Assembly: GCA_913063045.1 (NCBI GenBank)
Contig: CAJXYM010000008.1
Span: 1 to 60,162 of the forward strand
Source: an uncultured Flavobacteriales bacterium
GTDB lineage: Bacteria; Bacteroidota; Bacteroidia; Flavobacteriales; BACL11
DNA length: 60,162 nucleotides
Direction: 5' to 3'
Shown here: positions 24,357 to 35,160 of the stretch, piece after piece
Layout of the letters: every line of letters starts with the position of its first letter
How positions within the stretch are numbered: the stretch's first letter is position 1
The notes under the pieces: model-generated
The model's input: the letters and a program-made list of their open reading frames with translations, nothing else
Database searches by the model: none
What the model was told of the DNA's origin: nothing
Translations under genes and position numbers: made by a program

Positions 24357-25649
24357 ATGAACTATAAGGTTAAAGATATATCACTCGCTGATTGGGGAAG
24401 GAAGGAAATTACATTAGCTGAGTCTGAGATGCCGGGATTAATGTCACTTAGAGAAGAATTTGGCGATAGTAACCCTCTCAAAGGAGCAAGAATTGCAGGT
24501 TGTTTACATATGACAATTCAAACAGCTGTACTAATTGAAACCCTAGTTCATTTAGGTGCCGAGGTAACATGGTCATCTTGTAATATTTTCTCTACTCAAG
24601 ACCAAGCTGCTGCTGCCATAGCCGCTACAGGTGTTCCTGTTTTTGCATGGAAAGGAATGAATGAGCAAGAGTTTGATTGGTGTATTGAGAAGACTTTAAC
24701 CTCTTTTAAAGATGATAAGCCTTTGAATATGATTCTTGATGATGGAGGTGATTTAACAAATATGGTTTTAGACAGATATCCTGATTTAACTGCTGGAATA
24801 AAAGGTTTGTCAGAAGAGACAACAACTGGAGTTCATAGATTGTATGAAAGAATGGAAAAAGGTACGCTAACACTTCCTGCAATAAATATTAACGACTCTG
24901 TAACAAAATCTAAATTTGATAATAAATATGGCTGTAAGGAGTCTTTAGTTGATGCTATACGAAGAGCTACCGATGTTATGATGGCTGGAAAAGTTGCTGT
25001 TGTAGCGGGATACGGAGATGTTGGTAAAGGTTCAGCTGCTTCTTTGCAAGGTGCTGGAGCAAGAGTTATTGTGACGGAAATTGATCCTATTTGTGCGCTG
25101 CAAGCTGCAATGGATGGTTTTGCAGTTAAGAAAATGAGCTCAGTTGTTGGTGATGCTGATATTATTGTTACAACAACAGGAAATAAAGATATTATTCAGG
25201 GGCATCATTTTGAAGCAATGAAAGATAAGGTGATAGTATGTAATATTGGTCATTTTGATAATGAAATTGATGTTTCATGGTTAAATGATAATTGGGGACA
25301 CACAAAAAACACAATTAAGCCTCAAGTTGATATGTATACTGTTGATGGGAAAGATATTATATTGCTTGCTGAGGGTCGTTTAGTTAATCTTGGTTGTGCC
25401 ACAGGACATCCTTCTTTTGTTATGTCTAATTCATTCACAAATCAGGTTTTAGCTCAACTAGAATTATGGAACAACACTGATAGTTATGAAAATAAAGTTT
25501 ACATGCTTCCAAAGTATTTAGATGAAAAAGTAGCTAGGCTTCATTTATCTAAAATTGGTGTTGAGCTTGAGGAGCTAAGAAAAGATCAGGCTGATTATAT
25601 TGGTGTTAAGGTTGAAGGGCCGTATAAGCCTGAATATTACAGGTATTAA
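24357..25649 (+). CDS. ahcY: Adenosylhomocysteinase
   Basis: Hydrolyses S-adenosylhomocysteine to adenosine and homocysteine, closing the methyl cycle. The 430-residue protein shows [31 protein letters not shown], the catalytic [18 protein letters not shown] segment, the NAD-binding loop [13 protein letters not shown] near residue 220 and the C-terminal YKPEYYRY, which reaches into the neighbouring subunit's cofactor site. It is complete. It has its own promoter and ends convergently with a lipoprotein gene, the two stop codons overlapping. Confidence 0.98.
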
Positions 25650-26056
25650 TTAAAAACATGTAGAACATTGTTATCTAAAGCGTAGTTGTATTGCTTTAGA
25701 GGAAGAATTGCAGGGCTATTTGCGGCTACTCCATCTTGGTCCAGTAAAAATGCTGATGTGCAGCAATTACAAAAAGCAATACTTGAATTTATTGAGTCGA
25801 CAAATGAACATTCTAATGAAGGCTCATAGCTGCAGTTTCTATCATATATTCTGTAGTCAAAATTTGAATAATGATAGATAATTATCCCTTTGTTTCCGCC
25901 ATCAACTACAACACTGTTTCCAAGTGGTGTTAATTCGCTATACTCTGCTAGAGAAAGGTCTATTTCAAAATTAACATAAACATTTTGAATATAATCTTCT
26001 TCATTTCCGCAGGAGATTAATGTGATAATAAAAAGAGTTAGGATGAGCTGTTTCAT
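25646..26056 (-). CDS. Small lipoprotein, possible divergent Rieske-like fold
   Basis: A 136-residue protein with a lipoprotein signal ([14 protein letters not shown]; Cys at about residue 16). The rest is beta-rich: [25 protein letters not shown], then [19 protein letters not shown] and a cysteine cluster [18 protein letters not shown] followed by [19 protein letters not shown]. The layout resembles the Flavobacteriia lipoproteins that look like Rieske domains, but the His residues that bind a 2Fe-2S cluster are absent, so a cluster is doubtful. Function unknown. It is convergent with ahcY. Confidence 0.6.
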
Positions 26057-26164: not shown

Positions 26165-29100
26165 ATGTTCAGAAAAATTTATTTAATCATTGGTCTATCT
26201 TTTGCATCTCTAATTGCTTTTGGACAAACAGGAACTTTGAAGGGTGTTATTAGCGATGCAATGAGTGGTGAACCAATACCTTTTGCAAATATTGTTGTAG
26301 AAAAAAGTGGTAATCAATACGGAGGTACTACAACTGATTTTGATGGTAAATTTACTATCAAACCAATTGAGCCAGGTAATTATTCTGTAAAAGCAACTTT
26401 TGTTGGTTACCAAACAATAGAGGTTACTGGAGTGATTATATCTTCCAATAAAATTACATTTCAAGATGTAAAATTACAACAAGGAGTTGCTCTTGGAGAG
26501 ATTAGAATTATTGAATACAAGAAGCCGTTACTTGACCAAGATAACTTGTCAGGAGAAACAAAAACAGCTGAAGAAATTGTTGCCTTACCTACTAGAAATG
26601 TTTCTTCTGTAGCCGCTACCACTGCAGGGATTTATCAAAAAGATGAGGGTGATGCGGTTAATATGAGAGGCTCGAGAGATAATGCTACTGCATATTATGT
26701 TGATGGAATTAAAGTTAGAGGGTCACTTGGAGTTCCTACTTCTGGAATTGAGCAGATTACTGTTGTTACTGGAGGATTGCCTGCTCAATATGGTGATGCT
26801 ACTGGAGGAATTATTTCTGTTACAACAAAAGGGCCTTCAAATAAATTATTTGGTGGTATTGAGTTGGAGTCTTCATCATTATTTGACACTTATAATTATA
26901 ATCTTATTGGCTTTGGTTTATCAGGGCCGATCATTAAAAAAAGAAATACTGATGGCACAAAAGGATCTTCTATTTTAGGCTTTTTCTTATCTGGAGAGGC
27001 TAGAAATGTTGATGACACTGATCCTTCTGCTATAGGAAGGTGGAAAGTTAAGGATGATGTTTTAAAAGACCTTCAACAAACTCCTTTTGTTATTGCTCCA
27101 AATGCTAACGCTGGATTCTTAAGTACATCAGAATTTTTATCTGAAGATGATTTTGAGAATGTTGAAGCTAGGCTTAATTCAAACGAAAAAAGAATAAATC
27201 TTTCTGGAAAAATTGATTTTAAGCCAGCAAACAATACGTTCTTTTCATTAGGAGGTACACTTTACAACAGAGTTAGTAGAGACTTTTCACAAAGTAGATC
27301 CTTGATGTCTTCAGCAGATAATAGAGAGTCTTCACAAGAAACGTATAGAGTTTATGGTAAATTAACTCAAAAATTTGGTTCAGAAGAGTCTAACGAAGAA
27401 GATGCTTCGGCATTAATTAAAAATGCTTTTTTTACTATCCAAGCAGATTACACATCAAATCGTTACACATTTGTTGATGCTGATCATCAATTTGATTTAT
27501 TTAAATACGGATATGTTGGAGAATTTAATACATATAAAACACCATTTTATCAAAATGGCAGTGCTATTGATTCTTCTACAGGGATAATATATAATGGTAG
27601 AATTTTAACTGGTTGGGGAGATACATTATATTCATACGAATCTAATCAGTATACTAATCAAGGTTTAGCAAATTACACTAATGCTTACTATCAAATGTTT
27701 AATGATTATGGTCTTACTTCTTTTGTTGGTTCAGAAAATGATGGTGTAATAAGAACGGCAGCGGATTTAAAAGGTCAAGGTCTAAGAAATGGAGATTTAC
27801 CAGCATCGGTATACTCTTTATTTAGCAACCATGGATCTATGTACACAGGTTCTGCTAAGCAATTGAACACTCAATCTACATTTAAGGCTTCAGGGTCTGC
27901 AGATATTAAAAACCATGAATTTTCTTTTGGTTTTGAATTTGAGCAAAGAGATGATTCTTATTGGGGGTTTGGTCCTTTTAGTTTGTGGGGTTTAATGAGA
28001 CAATTGTCTAACAAGCATATTTTAGAAAGAGATTTAAGTAATCCAATGCCAGTTATGGATATTAATGGTGTTTATCAGGATACAGTTTATTACGACAGAT
28101 TATTTGTTGCTGATGAGCAGTCTTGGTTTGATAGGTCCTTAAGAAATGAGTTAGGTTTAGATCCAAATGGTACTGATTTTCTAGATATTGATTCTTATGA
28201 TCCAACTACTTTTGATGTAACTATGTTTAGCCAAGACGAATTATTGAATAATGGTTCTAATCTTGCATATTATTATGGTTATGATATTTATGGTAATAAG
28301 TTAAATAACATTCCAACGCTAAAAGACTTTTTTGAAAAAGAAGATGCTAATGGTAATTTTTTAAGGGAAATTGCATCATTTCGACCTATATATCAGGCTG
28401 GTTATATTCAAGATAAATTTGCTATTGAAGATCTTATTTTTAATATTGGTTTAAGAGTGGATAGATATGATGCTAATCAAAAAGTACTAAAAGATAAATA
28501 TCTACTTTATGATTCTTACACAGCTGGGGCTAATGATCCTTTAGGGATAATAAATAATACTCCTTCAACAATTGGAGATGACTATGTTGTTTATGTTGAT
28601 GATGTTTCTAATCCTTCTTCAATAGTAGGGTATAGAGATAATGAAACTTGGTATAACGCTCAAGGATTACAAATTTCAGATCCTAATTTACTAGCTGAAG
28701 CAGCAGGAGGAGCTATTCAGCCTTACGTAAAAAATCCTACTCAGGCTTTATCTGGAGATATTAAAGTTGATGAAGCTTTTGCTGACTATAAACCAGAAAC
28801 AGTTTTTATGCCTAGAATTGCATTCTCATTTCCTATTTCTGATGAGGCTCAGTTTTTTGCGCATTATGATGTTTTAACCCAACGACCTCCATCAGCAAAT
28901 AGATTAGAGCCTGTTGATTATTTGTTTATGGCAGATAGAGTAGGCGCTTTATTAAATAATCCAGATTTAAAATCTGAGAAAACAGTTGATTATGAATTAG
29001 GTTTTGCTAAGACATTATCACTTAGATCTGCATTAAAGATATCAGCTTTCTACAAAGAACTAAGAGATATGATTCAAGTTGTTAATGTACTAGGAGCATA

Positions 29101-29854
29101 TCCTGCACAGTATTTAACTTATGGAAATATTGACTTTGGAACTGTAAAAGGAATGTCTGCCAATTTTGATTTAAGAAGAACTAATAATGTTAGCTTAACA
29201 GCCAACTATACTTTGCAGTTCGCTGATGGTACTGGATCATCTGCAACTTCAGGTCAGAGTCTTGTAAACACAGGACAACCAAATTTAAGAACTACTATTC
29301 CATTAGCATATGATCAAAGACATGCTCTTTCAGCTTCTGTAGATTATCATTACGGATCAGGAAAAGATTATGATGGTCCTGTATGGTTTGGAAAAAATGT
29401 TTTTGCTGATGCTGGAGCTAATATGGTTTTATCAGCTGGTTCAGGAACACCATTTAGTAAGCAGTCTAACATAACTCAAGAAGCTGCTTCAGGAATTAAT
29501 GATAGATCAACACTTGAGGGAAGTTTAAACGGTTCTAGATTACCTTGGCAATTTAGAATAAGTACAAAAATTAATAAAGAGTTTGAAATTAAGTGGTCAG
29601 ATAAAAAGAAATCAAATGTCAACGTTTATGTTCAGGTTCAAAATTTATTAGATGCTAAAAATATAATAAGTGTTTATAGAGCAACAGGTAATCCTGAAGA
29701 TGATGGTTATTTAACATCAGCAGCTGCGCAAAACGCTATTGATGCTCAAAATAACCCTGATTCATTCAGATATCTATATTCATTAGCTGTCAATAATCCA
29801 TCTAACTATAGCTTGCCAAGAATGTTTAGGGCTGGTATAAGTTTTCAATTTTAA
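26165..29854 (+). CDS. Large TonB-dependent receptor with carboxypeptidase-like N-terminal domain (SusC-like)
   Basis: A 1,229-residue outer-membrane protein. After the signal peptide (ends AFGQ) comes a CarboxypepD_reg-like beta-sandwich (about residues 22-110: GTLKGVISDAMSGEPIPFANI, DGKFTIKPIEPGNYSVKATFVGYQT). The plug follows with YVDGIKVRGSLGVPTSGIEQITVVTGGLPAQYGDATGGII split here only for description, then a long barrel ending MFRAGISFQF. Extracellular loops are large and acidic. The typical SusC partner, a SusD lipoprotein, is missing; instead a giant exported protein and a PorV/PorQ-family gene follow at once. Import substrate is unknown, and a role in secretion-linked surface assembly is equally possible. 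Confidence 0.85.
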   Translation: MFRKIYLIIGLSFASLIAFGQTGTLKGVISDAMSGEPIPFANIVVEKSGNQYGGTTTDFDGKFTIKPIEPGNYSVKATFVGYQTIEVTGVIISSNKITFQDVKLQQGVALGEIRIIEYKKPLLDQDNLSGETKTAEEIVALPTRNVSSVAATTAGIYQKDEGDAVNMRGSRDNATAYYVDGIKVRGSLGVPTSGIEQITVVTGGLPAQYGDATGGIISVTTKGPSNKLFGGIELESSSLFDTYNYNLIGFGLSGPIIKKRNTDGTKGSSILGFFLSGEARNVDDTDPSAIGRWKVKDDVLKDLQQTPFVIAPNANAGFLSTSEFLSEDDFENVEARLNSNEKRINLSGKIDFKPANNTFFSLGGTLYNRVSRDFSQSRSLMSSADNRESSQETYRVYGKLTQKFGSEESNEEDASALIKNAFFTIQADYTSNRYTFVDADHQFDLFKYGYVGEFNTYKTPFYQNGSAIDSSTGIIYNGRILTGWGDTLYSYESNQYTNQGLANYTNAYYQMFNDYGLTSFVGSENDGVIRTAADLKGQGLRNGDLPASVYSLFSNHGSMYTGSAKQLNTQSTFKASGSADIKNHEFSFGFEFEQRDDSYWGFGPFSLWGLMRQLSNKHILERDLSNPMPVMDINGVYQDTVYYDRLFVADEQSWFDRSLRNELGLDPNGTDFLDIDSYDPTTFDVTMFSQDELLNNGSNLAYYYGYDIYGNKLNNIPTLKDFFEKEDANGNFLREIASFRPIYQAGYIQDKFAIEDLIFNIGLRVDRYDANQKVLKDKYLLYDSYTAGANDPLGIINNTPSTIGDDYVVYVDDVSNPSSIVGYRDNETWYNAQGLQISDPNLLAEAAGGAIQPYVKNPTQALSGDIKVDEAFADYKPETVFMPRIAFSFPISDEAQFFAHYDVLTQRPPSANRLEPVDYLFMADRVGALLNNPDLKSEKTVDYELGFAKTLSLRSALKISAFYKELRDMIQVVNVLGAYPAQYLTYGNIDFGTVKGMSANFDLRRTNNVSLTANYTLQFADGTGSSATSGQSLVNTGQPNLRTTIPLAYDQRHALSASVDYHYGSGKDYDGPVWFGKNVFADAGANMVLSAGSGTPFSKQSNITQEAASGINDRSTLEGSLNGSRLPWQFRISTKINKEFEIKWSDKKKSNVNVYVQVQNLLDAKNIISVYRATGNPEDDGYLTSAAAQNAIDAQNNPDSFRYLYSLAVNNPSNYSLPRMFRAGISFQF

Positions 29855-29873
29855 ATAAGAAGAAATTAGTAAT

Positions 29874-32800
29874 ATGAAAAATAAAGCATATATGATTAAT
29901 AAAGCAAAAAAAGCAATTATTGTTTGTTTAACACTTGTTACTACTTGTGTTTTTGCAAAAGAAAACATTCCTAACCCTAACATAAGTTCAGTAGTTTATT
30001 CAAAAGTAGCTGCTGGGTGTTCCCCATCAATCTCAAAAACTGATTTAGATGTGAATAATGTTAGAACTACGATTATGGCTGCTGGAGATATGTGGTGGAA
30101 TTTAGATGATGCCAGATATGAAATTCCAAAAGATGGAAATAAGCATTCAATGTTTGCTGGTGCTTTATGGATTGGTGGTGTAGATGCTGGTGGACAGTTG
30201 AAAGTTGCTGCCATGACCTACAGACAAGGAGGTAGTGATTTTTGGACTGGACCATTAAATACAACTAATGCAACTATTTCTTCCGATGAATGTAATAAAT
30301 GGGATAAGCATTTTAAGCTTGAACGTTCTGAAGTTGAAGAATATGCTGTTAGATTTGGAGTAGATCCTACTTATGTTATTCCTAATTCTATTTTAGAGTG
30401 GCCAGCTCATGGTGACGCTTCTTTAGGTCAAGACCCTTTTTTAGCTCCTTATTTTGATCTTAATGGCAATGGACTATATGAGCCATATGATGGTGATTAC
30501 CCTGACTATAATATTACAGGAACTAATGACGACGCTAAATTATTTGGAGACCAAACATTATGGTGGATATTTAATGATAAAGGAAATATTCATAGTGAAA
30601 CAGAAGCTGATGCTCTTGGTTTAGAAATTCATGCTCAAGCCTTCGGATTTACAGCCGATAATGAGGTTAATGATATGACATTTTATAACTATAAAATTAT
30701 AAATAGATCTACACTTCCTTTGAATGATACATATTTTGGTCAATGGGTTGATCCAGATTTAGGTTACTATCTAGATGATTATGTTGGATGTGATGTTGGT
30801 CTAGGATTAGGTTTTTGTTATAACGGTGATGCTGAAGATGAAGGAGCAGCTGGTTATGGTTTTAATCCTCCAGCTATTGGAGTTGACTTCTTTCAAGGAC
30901 CTTTAGCAGATCCAAATGATGGAATTGATAACGATAGAGATGGTACGATTGATGAGGCGAATGAACAAATAATTATGTCAAAATTCGTTTACTATAATAA
31001 TGACTTTACTCCTATTGGTAACCCTTCAGAGGGAACGCATTTTTATAATTATTTAAGAGGTATCTGGAAAGATAATGTTCCTATGACTTATGGTGGAGAT
31101 GGTCATGGTTCTGGTCAAGGAAGTACTCCAGACATATGTAACTTTATGTTCCCAGGAACTTCGGATGATTCCTTTAATGGACTTGAGTGGACAGAACAAA
31201 CTGCAGGAAATATTCCTGCTGATAGAAGATTTTTACAATCTGCAGGACCATTTACGCTTCAGCCTGGAGCAGTAAATGAAATCACAACTGGTGTAGTATG
31301 GGCTAGAGCTAAATCTGGAGGTCAAACTGCTTCAATTGCTCTTGTTAAAATTTATGATAGAGAAGCACAAGCATTATTTGATAATAATTTTAATATTCTG
31401 AATGGTCCTGATGCCCCAGATATTACTATAAGAGAGCTCGATAAAGAGTTAATTTTCACATTATCTAATAGTGGAGCTTCAAATAATATTAATGAAACAT
31501 ATGCTGAAAAAGATCCATATATCACAAAGCCATCAAATTTGTTGACTGATTCTGCTTATACTTTTCAAGGATACATGGTTTATCAGCTTTTAAATAATAC
31601 AGTTTCTGTTACAGATCTAGATGATCCTGATTTAGCTCGTTTAGTATTTAGATGTGATAAAAATGACACAGTTACTGGAATAGTAAATCAATATTTAGAT
31701 CCTTTATTAGGAGTATATACTCCAGTTGAAGAGGTAGCTTCTGTTCTTAGTGATGGTGTTATTGGATCTATTGATGAGGGGGTTCAATCTTCTTTTCAAA
31801 TAACAGAAGATAAATTTGCTCTTGGAAATACAAGATTAGTAAATCATAAGACGTATTATTTTATGTCTATTGCTTACGGATATAACAGAGCTGAAGAAAA
31901 TGCTGATCCTTATAATGTTAATGCTTCTGATTATGATGGAAGAAATCAACCTTATATTGGTGGAAGGAGAAATATAAAAGTATATTCTGGAATCCCGCAC
32001 TTCACACAGCCTGATGCTGGAGGAACTACATTAAGCGCTGCTTATGGTGATGGCGTTGAAATTACTAGAGTTGAAGGGAAAGGTAATGGAGGAAATACTT
32101 TAGATCTTACAGACGCTACTATTGATGAAATTTTAAATAATTTAGATGCAAGAGCTTATTATCCTACTTATAAAGCAGGAAGTGGCCCAATAAATATTTC
32201 AGTTGTAGACCCTGTTAAAATTCCGCAAGGAGATTATACTTTAAAGCTATATGACCCTGAATTTAGTGGTAGTAGTATTATTTCTTACAATAGTTGGGAA
32301 TTGAGTGAACAGCAAACTGGAGTAATTTTAGCAACCTCTAACCAATCATTACTAGTTGGTACTGAAAAATATGTTAACTCGCTTGGACTAAATATTAAAG
32401 TTAAGCAAGCTTCTGAACCAGGTTCTGATCCTGCAAATATTGATAATAATGGATTATTATCAAGTTCAATAGAATTTGAAAATCTTAATGATAGATGGCT
32501 GAGTGGTGTGCCAGATAGAGATGATGAATCAGCATTTTTTAGCGTTTGGGGTTTAAATTGGATAAGATCTGGTGGATATACTAATGCAACGAATGGTTTA
32601 TTAAGTGATTATTCTCAAACGGATGATCCAAGTGGAATTTACGAAGGTGTTATTGAGCAAACTGTTAATTTTTCACTTTTTGGAGGACAAGAAATAAAAG
32701 GAGGAACATGGGCGCCATACAGATTTGCATCTTATTTTAATGATGGGCCTGGACATAGTAGTAGTATTACTTCTCAGGCAAAAATGGAGAATTTAAATTC

Positions 32801-34058
32801 TGTTGATATTGTCTTTACAAATGATAAGTCTAAATGGTCTAGAGCTGTAATTGTTGAAGCCCAAGAGGATCCAACTCTATCAGTTGGCGGAGCATTAAAG
32901 ATGGATTTAAGACAAACTAATTCTGTTAATAAGGAAGGGGAAGATGATGGTTCTGGTACTAAAGGTATGGGTTGGTTCCCAGGTTATGCTATTGATATTG
33001 AAACAGGAGAAAGATTAAATATTGTATTTGCTGAAGATTCTTGGTTAACTAGCGATAATGGTAATGATATGAAGTGGAATCCTACTTCTAATATAGTAAC
33101 TGATGAATTTCCTCAATACGATCCAACTACTCAAACGTTTTCTGGTGGAAATTATTTATTAGGAGGTAAGCATTTTATCTATGTTGTTAACGGTCAATCT
33201 TGGGTTAAAGGAACTGAAGATTATGTTAATGGAGATTACTCTGATGTTGATAATAGTCCTAATTACGATGAATGTGCATGGATTTATAATCAATTGCTTG
33301 ATGATGCCAATGGTGTTGGTAAATGGAAGGTGTTTAAGAACTGTTCATGGGTTGGCGTTCCTTTATTAGCCCCTGGAAGATCATTACTTACTAATGATGC
33401 TAAAGTTAAATTAAGAGTTTCTAAGCCTTATAAGCAATATGAAACAACTAATTCTTTAGATATTCTTACAAAGGATAATGATTTAACAATTGGAGAGACT
33501 TATGTTGTTGCTTACGAAAATTCCCCAACAACTTGGGGAGGGAAGTCAATTACTCATGATGGGAATACTTACCAGCCTGGTGATGTTTTTCAAGCTACTA
33601 CAATTTCTTTTACTGGAAGTAGTAAAGCTAGAGTTGTTAAGTATAGTCCACAAAATTCGTTCAATCCAATTTATAATTTTAGTACTGATGATATTGTTGC
33701 TGTAAAAGGTGACCCTAGCGTAGCAAAAGATGCTTTAGAGATGATTAATGTTGTTCCTAATCCTTACTATGGCTATTCAAGCTATGAAATTAATCAGTTA
33801 GATAATAGAATTAAAATTACTAATCTTCCTCAAATAGCTACAGTAAAAATATTTACTGTTAGTGGAACACTTGTAAGAGAGTTAAAGAAAGATGATCCTG
33901 TAACTTCAATTGATTGGGATTTAAAAAATGATTTTGGGATTCCAATTGCAAGTGGTCTTTATATCATTCATGTTGAAACATACATAAACGGTAAAAAGGA
34001 AAACAAAATAATTAAATGGTTTGGAGCTTTACGTCCAATAGATTTAGATACGTTCTAA
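29874..34058 (+). CDS. 1,394-residue exported protein with C-terminal T9SS/FlgD-like domain
   Basis: Signal peptide ending VFAKE, then a long beta-rich mature part. Two acidic Ca2+-loop-like segments are visible, DLNGNGLYEPYDGDYPD near residue 195-210 and DGIDNDRDGTIDEANEQ near 345-360. The last 100 residues (VVPNPYYGYSS, KIFTVSGTLVREL, GIPIASGLYIIHVE) have the pattern of a type A sorting domain of the type IX secretion system or the FlgD Ig-like fold, but end unusually in KWFGALRPIDLDTF instead of stopping soon after the last strand. No catalytic domain recognised. It starts 19 bases after the TonB receptor and is followed by a PorV/PorQ-family gene, so it is probably exported and held at the surface. 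Confidence 0.75.
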   Translation: MKNKAYMINKAKKAIIVCLTLVTTCVFAKENIPNPNISSVVYSKVAAGCSPSISKTDLDVNNVRTTIMAAGDMWWNLDDARYEIPKDGNKHSMFAGALWIGGVDAGGQLKVAAMTYRQGGSDFWTGPLNTTNATISSDECNKWDKHFKLERSEVEEYAVRFGVDPTYVIPNSILEWPAHGDASLGQDPFLAPYFDLNGNGLYEPYDGDYPDYNITGTNDDAKLFGDQTLWWIFNDKGNIHSETEADALGLEIHAQAFGFTADNEVNDMTFYNYKIINRSTLPLNDTYFGQWVDPDLGYYLDDYVGCDVGLGLGFCYNGDAEDEGAAGYGFNPPAIGVDFFQGPLADPNDGIDNDRDGTIDEANEQIIMSKFVYYNNDFTPIGNPSEGTHFYNYLRGIWKDNVPMTYGGDGHGSGQGSTPDICNFMFPGTSDDSFNGLEWTEQTAGNIPADRRFLQSAGPFTLQPGAVNEITTGVVWARAKSGGQTASIALVKIYDREAQALFDNNFNILNGPDAPDITIRELDKELIFTLSNSGASNNINETYAEKDPYITKPSNLLTDSAYTFQGYMVYQLLNNTVSVTDLDDPDLARLVFRCDKNDTVTGIVNQYLDPLLGVYTPVEEVASVLSDGVIGSIDEGVQSSFQITEDKFALGNTRLVNHKTYYFMSIAYGYNRAEENADPYNVNASDYDGRNQPYIGGRRNIKVYSGIPHFTQPDAGGTTLSAAYGDGVEITRVEGKGNGGNTLDLTDATIDEILNNLDARAYYPTYKAGSGPINISVVDPVKIPQGDYTLKLYDPEFSGSSIISYNSWELSEQQTGVILATSNQSLLVGTEKYVNSLGLNIKVKQASEPGSDPANIDNNGLLSSSIEFENLNDRWLSGVPDRDDESAFFSVWGLNWIRSGGYTNATNGLLSDYSQTDDPSGIYEGVIEQTVNFSLFGGQEIKGGTWAPYRFASYFNDGPGHSSSITSQAKMENLNSVDIVFTNDKSKWSRAVIVEAQEDPTLSVGGALKMDLRQTNSVNKEGEDDGSGTKGMGWFPGYAIDIETGERLNIVFAEDSWLTSDNGNDMKWNPTSNIVTDEFPQYDPTTQTFSGGNYLLGGKHFIYVVNGQSWVKGTEDYVNGDYSDVDNSPNYDECAWIYNQLLDDANGVGKWKVFKNCSWVGVPLLAPGRSLLTNDAKVKLRVSKPYKQYETTNSLDILTKDNDLTIGETYVVAYENSPTTWGGKSITHDGNTYQPGDVFQATTISFTGSSKARVVKYSPQNSFNPIYNFSTDDIVAVKGDPSVAKDALEMINVVPNPYYGYSSYEINQLDNRIKITNLPQIATVKIFTVSGTLVRELKKDDPVTSIDWDLKNDFGIPIASGLYIIHVETYINGKKENKIIKWFGALRPIDLDTF

Positions 34059-34083
34059 AAAAATAATAGTGAATATAAATATC

Positions 34084-35160
34084 ATGAATATGAAAGAAAT
34101 AAGTAAATTATTTAAGACGCTCTTAATAGTAGTTTTATTGCTATCAGGATTTGAGATTTTTGCAGGTAATGAACAAAGAGCTGGTCAAGCAGGAGCTTCA
34201 GAATTATTAATCAATCCATGGGCAAGATCATCTGGATGGGCAGGAGCTAATGTTGCAGGAGTTAGAGGTTTAGAAGGAATATTCTCTAATGTTGCTGGTT
34301 TAGCATTCACAGAAAAAACCGAGCTTATCTTTTCTCAAACTTCATGGCTGCAATATGGGGGTAAGATGTTTGATGCAAATAGTTGTGTAAGTAATATCAG
34401 TACATTTGGATTCTCTCAAAAAATGGGAGAATCAAGCGTTTTAGGATTTGCTGTAATGAATATGAACTTTGGTGAAATCGATATAACAACTGTTGATCTT
34501 CCTGATGGTGGAATAGGTACATTTTCTCCAAAATATATGAATATTAGTATGTCATATGCAAAGATTTTTTCTAACAGTATTTTTGGAGGAGTTACTGTTA
34601 AAATGATATCAGAACAAATTTCTAATGTTGGAGCTAATGGTATTGCTTTAGACGCAGGTATTCAATATGTTACTGGAGTAAAAGATAATTTGAAATTTGG
34701 TATTTCATTAAAAAATGTTGGTCCTAGAATGTCCTTTGCTGGCGATGGTCTTTCTTTTAGAAATTATTTAAATCCAAATTACGAAATGACAGCAGAACAA
34801 AGATCGTCTGAGTTTGAGCTGCCTGCATTATTAAATATTGGTTTATCTTATGATATTTTAGCAGAAGATCATAGGTTAACCGGAGCAGGTACTTTTACAT
34901 CAAACTCTTTTCAAAAAGATCAATATAAATTAGGAGGAGAATATTCTTATAAAGAATATTTCATGATTAGAGCAGGTTATACTTACGAAGAAGGGATAGG
35001 TGATGCTGCCACTAGAACTACTGCGCTTAGAGGTCCTTCTGCAGGTTTTACAGTTGAGTTGCCAATGGGTAATGGGACATCCTTTGGATTAGATTACTCA
35101 TACAGACATACAGACCCTTTTCAAGGGTCTCATGCTATTGGCGCAAGAATAAATCTTTAA
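34084..35160 (+). CDS. PorV/PorQ family outer-membrane beta-barrel protein
   Basis: A 358-residue protein; I choose the ATG at 34084, since a longer reading from a GTG at 34069 only extends the signal peptide. After the signal (ends EIFAG) the mature N-terminus has AGQAGASELLINPWARSSGWAGANVAGVRGLEGIFSNVAGLA, of which the GASELLINPWAR and NVAGLA parts are typical for PorV/PorQ-type barrels (FadL-like). PorV shuttles T9SS cargo to the attachment complex. Placed right after the giant exported protein, it may be a dedicated partner rather than the general PorV. Barrel strands run to the end (HAIGARINL). Confidence 0.85.
   Translation: MNMKEISKLFKTLLIVVLLLSGFEIFAGNEQRAGQAGASELLINPWARSSGWAGANVAGVRGLEGIFSNVAGLAFTEKTELIFSQTSWLQYGGKMFDANSCVSNISTFGFSQKMGESSVLGFAVMNMNFGEIDITTVDLPDGGIGTFSPKYMNISMSYAKIFSNSIFGGVTVKMISEQISNVGANGIALDAGIQYVTGVKDNLKFGISLKNVGPRMSFAGDGLSFRNYLNPNYEMTAEQRSSEFELPALLNIGLSYDILAEDHRLTGAGTFTSNSFQKDQYKLGGEYSYKEYFMIRAGYTYEEGIGDAATRTTALRGPSAGFTVELPMGNGTSFGLDYSYRHTDPFQGSHAIGARINL

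Follow-up and report, generated by a model that had tools for sequence, protein, structure and literature searches.

A TonB-dependent receptor, a large exported middle protein (MID) and an outer-membrane barrel of the PorV/PorQ family (PORV) are encoded by three consecutive genes in the window, the 60,162-nucleotide stretch of DNA analysed here, and the same gene order was found across the Bacteroidota. Judging from the sequences, we consider it on balance probable that the trio forms one outer-membrane complex, in which MID would be a subunit exported by the type IX secretion system (T9SS) that retains its tail, is anchored by the barrel and sits on the receptor. Retention of the MID tail alone, argued by analogy, seems somewhat more probable than the complex as a whole. 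That the trio represents an ancient, Bacteroidota-wide and repeatedly duplicated class of TonB uptake systems, whose T9SS-delivered extracellular subunit is fixed by a PorV paralogue of its own, has about an even chance of being correct.

The locus and its recurrence in the Bacteroidota

The features of the locus are as follows:
26165..29854, plus strand: TonB-dependent receptor, 1229 aa; open reading frame with N-terminal CarboxypepD_reg and Plug domains
29874..34058, plus strand: MID, 1394 aa; open reading frame with a hydrophobic N-terminal export signal (recognised by eye) and a T9SS-type C-terminal domain
30066..31394, plus strand: MID N-domain, about residues 65-507; a beta-supersandwich fold is predicted by the model of homologue L104
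33747..34016, plus strand: MID C-terminal domain, about residues 1292-1381; type A T9SS signal in a PorZ/PorU-like variant, with the invariant Lys1381 as its last residue
34017..34055, plus strand: conserved 13-residue extension after Lys1381, WFGALRPIDLDTF; seen in alignments and missing in ordinary type A tails
34069..35160, plus strand: PORV, outer-membrane barrel of the PorV/PorQ family, 363 aa from GTG; NF033709 over cut-off

The three open reading frames were confirmed on the plus strand, as expected from the initial annotation, which had described three tightly spaced genes on one strand. The receptor and MID genes are separated by 19 bases, and the gap between MID and the barrel is 10, 25 or 31 bases when the barrel gene is started at the GTG, at ATG 34084 or at ATG 34090, respectively. 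The last of these is the site of a Met-Lys conserved in relatives, and the start is likely to be ATG 34084 or 34090. The source genome bin has a size of 1.37 Mb and is 84.9% complete. In it, the trio is flanked by ahcY and a 136-aa lipoprotein gene on the upstream side and by greA on the downstream side. The small lipoprotein (25646-26056, minus strand, lipobox ISCGN) is transcribed divergently from the receptor gene and conserved beside it in many Bacteroidia loci (54 related loci). It gave no match in a Pfam search but resembles a degenerate Rieske-type domain, with C-x-H and C-x-x-C in Bacteroidales and altered ligands in the window copy; it may be a fourth partner of the trio.

Loci were collected through the middle protein alone, which yielded 80 kept Bacteroidia loci, 66 of them testable in that they had room on both sides. 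The initial annotation had proposed a search for the same three-gene order in other Bacteroidota, and the order was indeed recovered: receptor, MID and barrel were adjacent on one strand in 62 of the 66 testable Bacteroidia loci, and followed the same order in 18 of 20 distant-class loci fetched by MID. The grouping of the three genes is far beyond chance. Of the four Bacteroidia exceptions, one has a frameshift in the MID gene (L070), and another is an additional MID copy that lies behind an intact trio (L081). This frameshift, an in-frame stop in MID of L051 and a fragmented receptor gene in L077 are either assembly errors or signs of decaying copies. Six loci from records with the bin title 'Chryseobacterium gleum' or 'Chitinophaga pinensis' (L057, L082, L083, L090, L091, L105) were roughly as similar to the window as those of other uncultured Flavobacteriales, and these species names look wrong. 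Across the phylum, the MID profile found relatives in 211 of 395 sampled genomes, some of them by the tail alone.

Ten genomes were searched with all three profiles, and 59 barrel matches (∼48 bits and above) were examined. A tail-bearing protein lay just upstream of 40 of them, and in 39 of these 40 cases a receptor preceded it. Nearly all of the better barrel matches were triad members, and those outside triads were mostly the weakest; when 16 weaker places were fetched, eight turned out to be canonical PorV genes immediately preceded by PorU, an arrangement also seen in the window's own genome. The initial annotation had viewed the trio as one surface module and held that finding the three families apart in most genomes would speak against it. 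This was not the case, because the order recurs phylum-wide and the barrel matches lie mostly in triads. Two observations count against reading the trio as a complex: some tail proteins are found apart from any barrel, and some triads have the altered order tail protein, receptor, barrel (L183, L188, L207).

In Bacteroidia the trio is present in single copy and sits at a constant site: many loci have ahcY and the small lipoprotein gene before it, and greA and a HIT-family gene follow it even in Bacteroidales from the rumen. It was found in all sampled genomes of the same family that were at least 90% complete, with sizes of ∼1.5 to 2 Mb. Elsewhere, the order receptor-MID-barrel was seen in dozens of paralogous copies. 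Some genomes carry seven to nine triads. Their middle proteins vary in length (∼620 to 1330 aa) and have only the tail in common; no Pfam domain was found in ten paralogous middle proteins at E 0.001. Such variation suggests that receptor, tail and barrel are a chassis on which the extracellular parts can be exchanged. In one genome (G357; loci L212 and L214), several additional MID-like proteins, which share the tail but have no barrel of their own, lay before or after a single barrel or trio. In another (G309), contigs C96 and C200 contained tandem arrays of ∼ten and ∼eight open reading frames (∼560 aa each) with homology to the MID N-domain, which gives the impression that amplification affected only the extracellular domain.

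Among paralogous triads within one genome, the pairwise distances of receptor, tail and barrel were correlated, with r of 0.41-0.94 (permutation p of 0.0002-0.045; four genomes, three pairings). Because the correlation lies within genomes, species history is excluded as its cause. Joint duplication of linked genes yields the same correlation, so that co-inheritance of the three genes was shown, and physical contact among receptor, tail and barrel is only suggested.

The constancy of the locus in Bacteroidia (one copy, a fixed place, kept in small genomes) resembles a housekeeping function, and is what would be expected if the trio were a surface-biogenesis or structural complex like BamG-BamH, which are additions to the BAM complex of the Bacteroidota, and in which the receptor-type barrel is a scaffold or export helper with no role in uptake. 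BamG is itself a FadL-family barrel that holds a surface subunit (PMC12578637). This explanation fits poorly with the other classes, where many copies with differing extracellular parts occur per genome and ligand specialisation fits better, and with the plug domain that the receptors retain; we regard it as distinctly unlikely.

The MID tail, the barrel and type IX secretion

The occurrence of MID followed that of the T9SS translocon SprA, which was present in all 211 MID-bearing genomes, and no MID match was found in any of 91 SprA-negative genomes. In the window's own genome, SprA was identified at G000:C7:43120-50124 (2651 bits), together with PorU, PorV, PorQ, PorZ and ∼30 tail-bearing proteins. 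The sorting-like C-terminus that the initial annotation had noticed in the large exported protein was recognised by TIGR04183, the type A sorting model, with 26.3 bits in the whole-genome search and 26.7 bits for the tail alone against a cut-off of 23; MID passes this model modestly. Alignment showed Lys1381 to be invariant in 36 homologues. MID combines what is expected of a type A cargo, namely a sorting domain over the cut-off, an invariant lysine, seven strands (in the L104 model) and SprA in the genome.

Comparison with NCBIfam models set the MID tail apart from ordinary tails. For the tails of ten MID homologues PorZ was the best model in every case (23 to 50 bits) and PorU was also matched in all ten at E 0.01 or better, with 16-28 bits for the generic sorting model. 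In contrast, for seven ordinary tails of the own genome the generic model was best (47 to 58 bits), and none of the seven matched PorZ or PorU. When the whole genome was searched with the PorZ model, its tail region was matched only in PorZ, MID and PorU. The alignment revealed an insertion common to MID and the own PorU and missing in ordinary tails, followed by the invariant lysine and then by the 13-residue extension. In the model of the short homologue L104 (built with a 63-row alignment; pLDDT 83.9, pTM 0.73) the tail domain is seven-stranded, and the best Foldseek match of this model was PorZ (5m11, 127 columns). In the PDB, no sequence relatives of MID were found except for a weak match to the PorZ tail. 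By these comparisons, the MID tail can be assigned to the PorZ/PorU type and not to the ordinary cleaved type.

Several reported properties of such tails bear on this assignment. PorU retains its tail on PorV, and PorZ on PorQ, and it has been proposed that handling by a cognate PorV-like barrel shields tails of this kind from cleavage (PMC10202324). The PorU and PorZ tails have an extra ribbon after strand five (PMC11285876). Inside SprA, PorV loops grip the tail, and the conserved lysine contacts PorV (PMC10994853). For type B cargos, SprF/PorP barrels act as the anchor (PMC9143113).

The third gene had been taken for a PorV-family barrel, which was borne out by NF033709 (PorV/PorQ family; 133 bits, cut-off 90), a model that all 32 homologues matched; against F. 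johnsoniae PorV (6h3i) an E of 1.6e-16 was obtained. The barrel is neither PorV itself (NF033710, 59.5 bits against a cut-off of 250) nor PorQ (NF033711, 63.5 bits against 220), both of which are encoded elsewhere in the genome, and it is best described as a paralogue of these two proteins. In a PorV-family tree, triad barrels and canonical PorV/PorQ split weakly (branch support 28/9). Membership of the type B/SprF group was rejected, as no type B sorting-signal model was matched in the NCBIfam search and PorP_SprF gave 18.6 bits, below its cut-off of 22.3. The own genome has three PorV-family barrels over the cut-off (PorV, PorQ and the trio barrel) and three tails of the PorZ/PorU class (PorU, PorZ and MID), the simplest reading of which is that MID and the trio barrel are a third cognate pair. 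Canonical PorU and PorV genes had the same order as MID and the barrel in 9 of 9 cases seen.

We propose that Sec would take MID across the inner membrane and SprA would take it across the outer membrane, steps suggested by the export signal and the tail of MID and by the presence of SprA. The C-terminal domain of MID would then be handed to the neighbouring PorV-family barrel and, by analogy with PorU on PorV and PorZ on PorQ, stay there, uncleaved by the sortase PorU. Anchored in this way, MID would sit over the TonB-dependent receptor as an extracellular ligand-binding subunit, an arrangement to which the conserved gene order and the joint history of the three genes point.

Alternatively, MID might be an ordinary T9SS cargo whose tail is cleaved by PorU, so that the protein is linked to LPS or released, with the barrel as a private shuttle; the receptor would then share the operon since it takes up what MID binds or processes, without a stable complex. 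The MID tail does pass the generic type A model and has the invariant lysine, canonical PorV shuttles cleaved cargos (PMC10994853), and operon linkage alone can mean a common pathway. But the tail belongs to the PorZ/PorU class, which is uncleaved in known cases and differs from the ordinary tails of the own genome, and a private shuttle needs no receptor at every copy. We therefore hold this alternative to be unlikely, though deserving of weight, and prefer the reading with a retained tail.

The receptor and the extracellular part of MID

The receptor matched PF13620 (CarboxypepD_reg, 61.2 bits) and PF07715 (Plug, 43.3 bits) in Pfam, both above cut-off, and no SusC/RagA model in NCBIfam or Pfam at E 0.1. 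None of the flanking genes (ahcY, the 136-aa lipoprotein, MID, greA) matched SusD. Of the initial description of a SusC-like receptor without SusD, the lack of SusD was thus upheld; the term 'SusC-like' was not, because no SusC/RagA model matched the receptor and the neighbourhood contains no SusD, and the protein should be labelled a CarboxypepD_reg-type TonB-dependent receptor. Membership of the trio in the SusC/SusD systems was rejected, the receptor lying outside SusC/RagA and having no adjacent SusD-type surface lipoprotein. The wider proposal, a surface module with a barrel carrying a dedicated cargo beside the receptor, loses this label and finds good support in the phylum-wide linkage, the joint diversification and the PorZ/PorU-type tail.

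Signalling and scaffolding are further roles that TonB-dependent receptors may have, which is a point against an uptake model. Import is inferred here as the default function of such receptors. It had been suggested that the receptor might energise the module; energy for export is likelier to come from the T9SS motor, and the receptor more likely imports something. In the complex that we favour, the trio would work like SusC/SusD, the surface lipoprotein being replaced by a lid that the T9SS exports and the barrel anchors.

MID itself matched no Pfam model above its cut-off. Predicted from a single sequence, the N-region of the window MID gave no usable model (pLDDT 30). The N-domain of the L104 model matched the supersandwich domains of GH15/GH94/GH65/GH116-type enzymes with Z of 14-17, up to 17.2 (VIA-align); the best match had an rmsd of 3.1 over 238 residues, and the fold matches were at 6-11% identity. 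They were limited to the N-domain, the remainder of the model being mostly strands. The supersandwich domain is non-catalytic in GH94, GH65, GH116 and GH15-type enzymes, and the predicted fold hints only weakly at glycans. The same matches could be taken to mean that MID acts as a glycoside hydrolase or phosphorylase at the cell surface and that the receptor imports its products. Besides the non-catalytic nature of this domain, the L104 model has no helix run after the N-domain that could form an (alpha/alpha)6 catalytic barrel, and no glycosidase family was matched in NCBIfam or Pfam. A catalytic glycosidase identity of MID is unlikely by this model, and we rate the whole explanation as very improbable.

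Novelty and comparison with known systems

Each half of the proposed complex has precedents, in tails retained on PorV-family barrels and in a receptor with an extracellular lid. No description of the trio, of PorV paralogues beside receptors or of T9SS-exported lids was found in the literature searched, a search with most subscription papers and all preprints outside its scope; neither the combination nor its spread through the phylum or its amplification was described there. T9SS biology comes mainly from Flavobacterium johnsoniae and Porphyromonas gingivalis. The families f3 and f6, which belong to the window's order and dominate the no-match list, gave at most weak matches to the MID profile, which may explain why the trio was missed. 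If the favoured reading is true, the trio would be a second solution to the SusC/SusD problem and a third pair of retained tail and barrel, tying protein export directly to TonB uptake. PorV-family barrels would then be permanent, cargo-specific anchors for exchangeable extracellular domains, which would account for the abundance of PorV-family genes in some classes, and a PorZ/PorU-type tail with an adjacent PorV-family barrel would predict anchored, uncleaved T9SS cargos.

PorU-PorV and PorZ-PorQ, from the T9SS attachment complex, are like MID and its barrel in that a T9SS-exported protein with the same tail class is paired with a PorV-family barrel, and PorU lies directly upstream of PorV in the same order. 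However, these pairs are parts of the sortase machinery, whereas MID has neither a protease nor a PorZ body, its barrel is a separate paralogue, and the third gene is always that of a TonB-dependent receptor. In SprB-SprF and PG1035-PorP, a cargo is likewise co-encoded with a cognate FadL-family barrel that acts as a surface anchor (PMC9143113, PMC10202324). The trio differs from these type B pairs in that no type B signal was matched, the barrel is of the PorV/PorQ family, and the type B pairs have no receptor. BamG-BamH is similar in that a FadL-family barrel binds a surface protein via extracellular loops (PMC12578637); BamH is a lipoprotein of the cell surface, and BamA, not a TonB receptor, serves as the large barrel partner. 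SusC/SusD complexes share with the trio a TonB-dependent receptor encoded beside a large extracellular partner. In the trio, by contrast, the receptor is not of the SusC family, the partner is not a SusD lipoprotein and would be exported by the T9SS, and a third component, the putative anchor barrel, is present.
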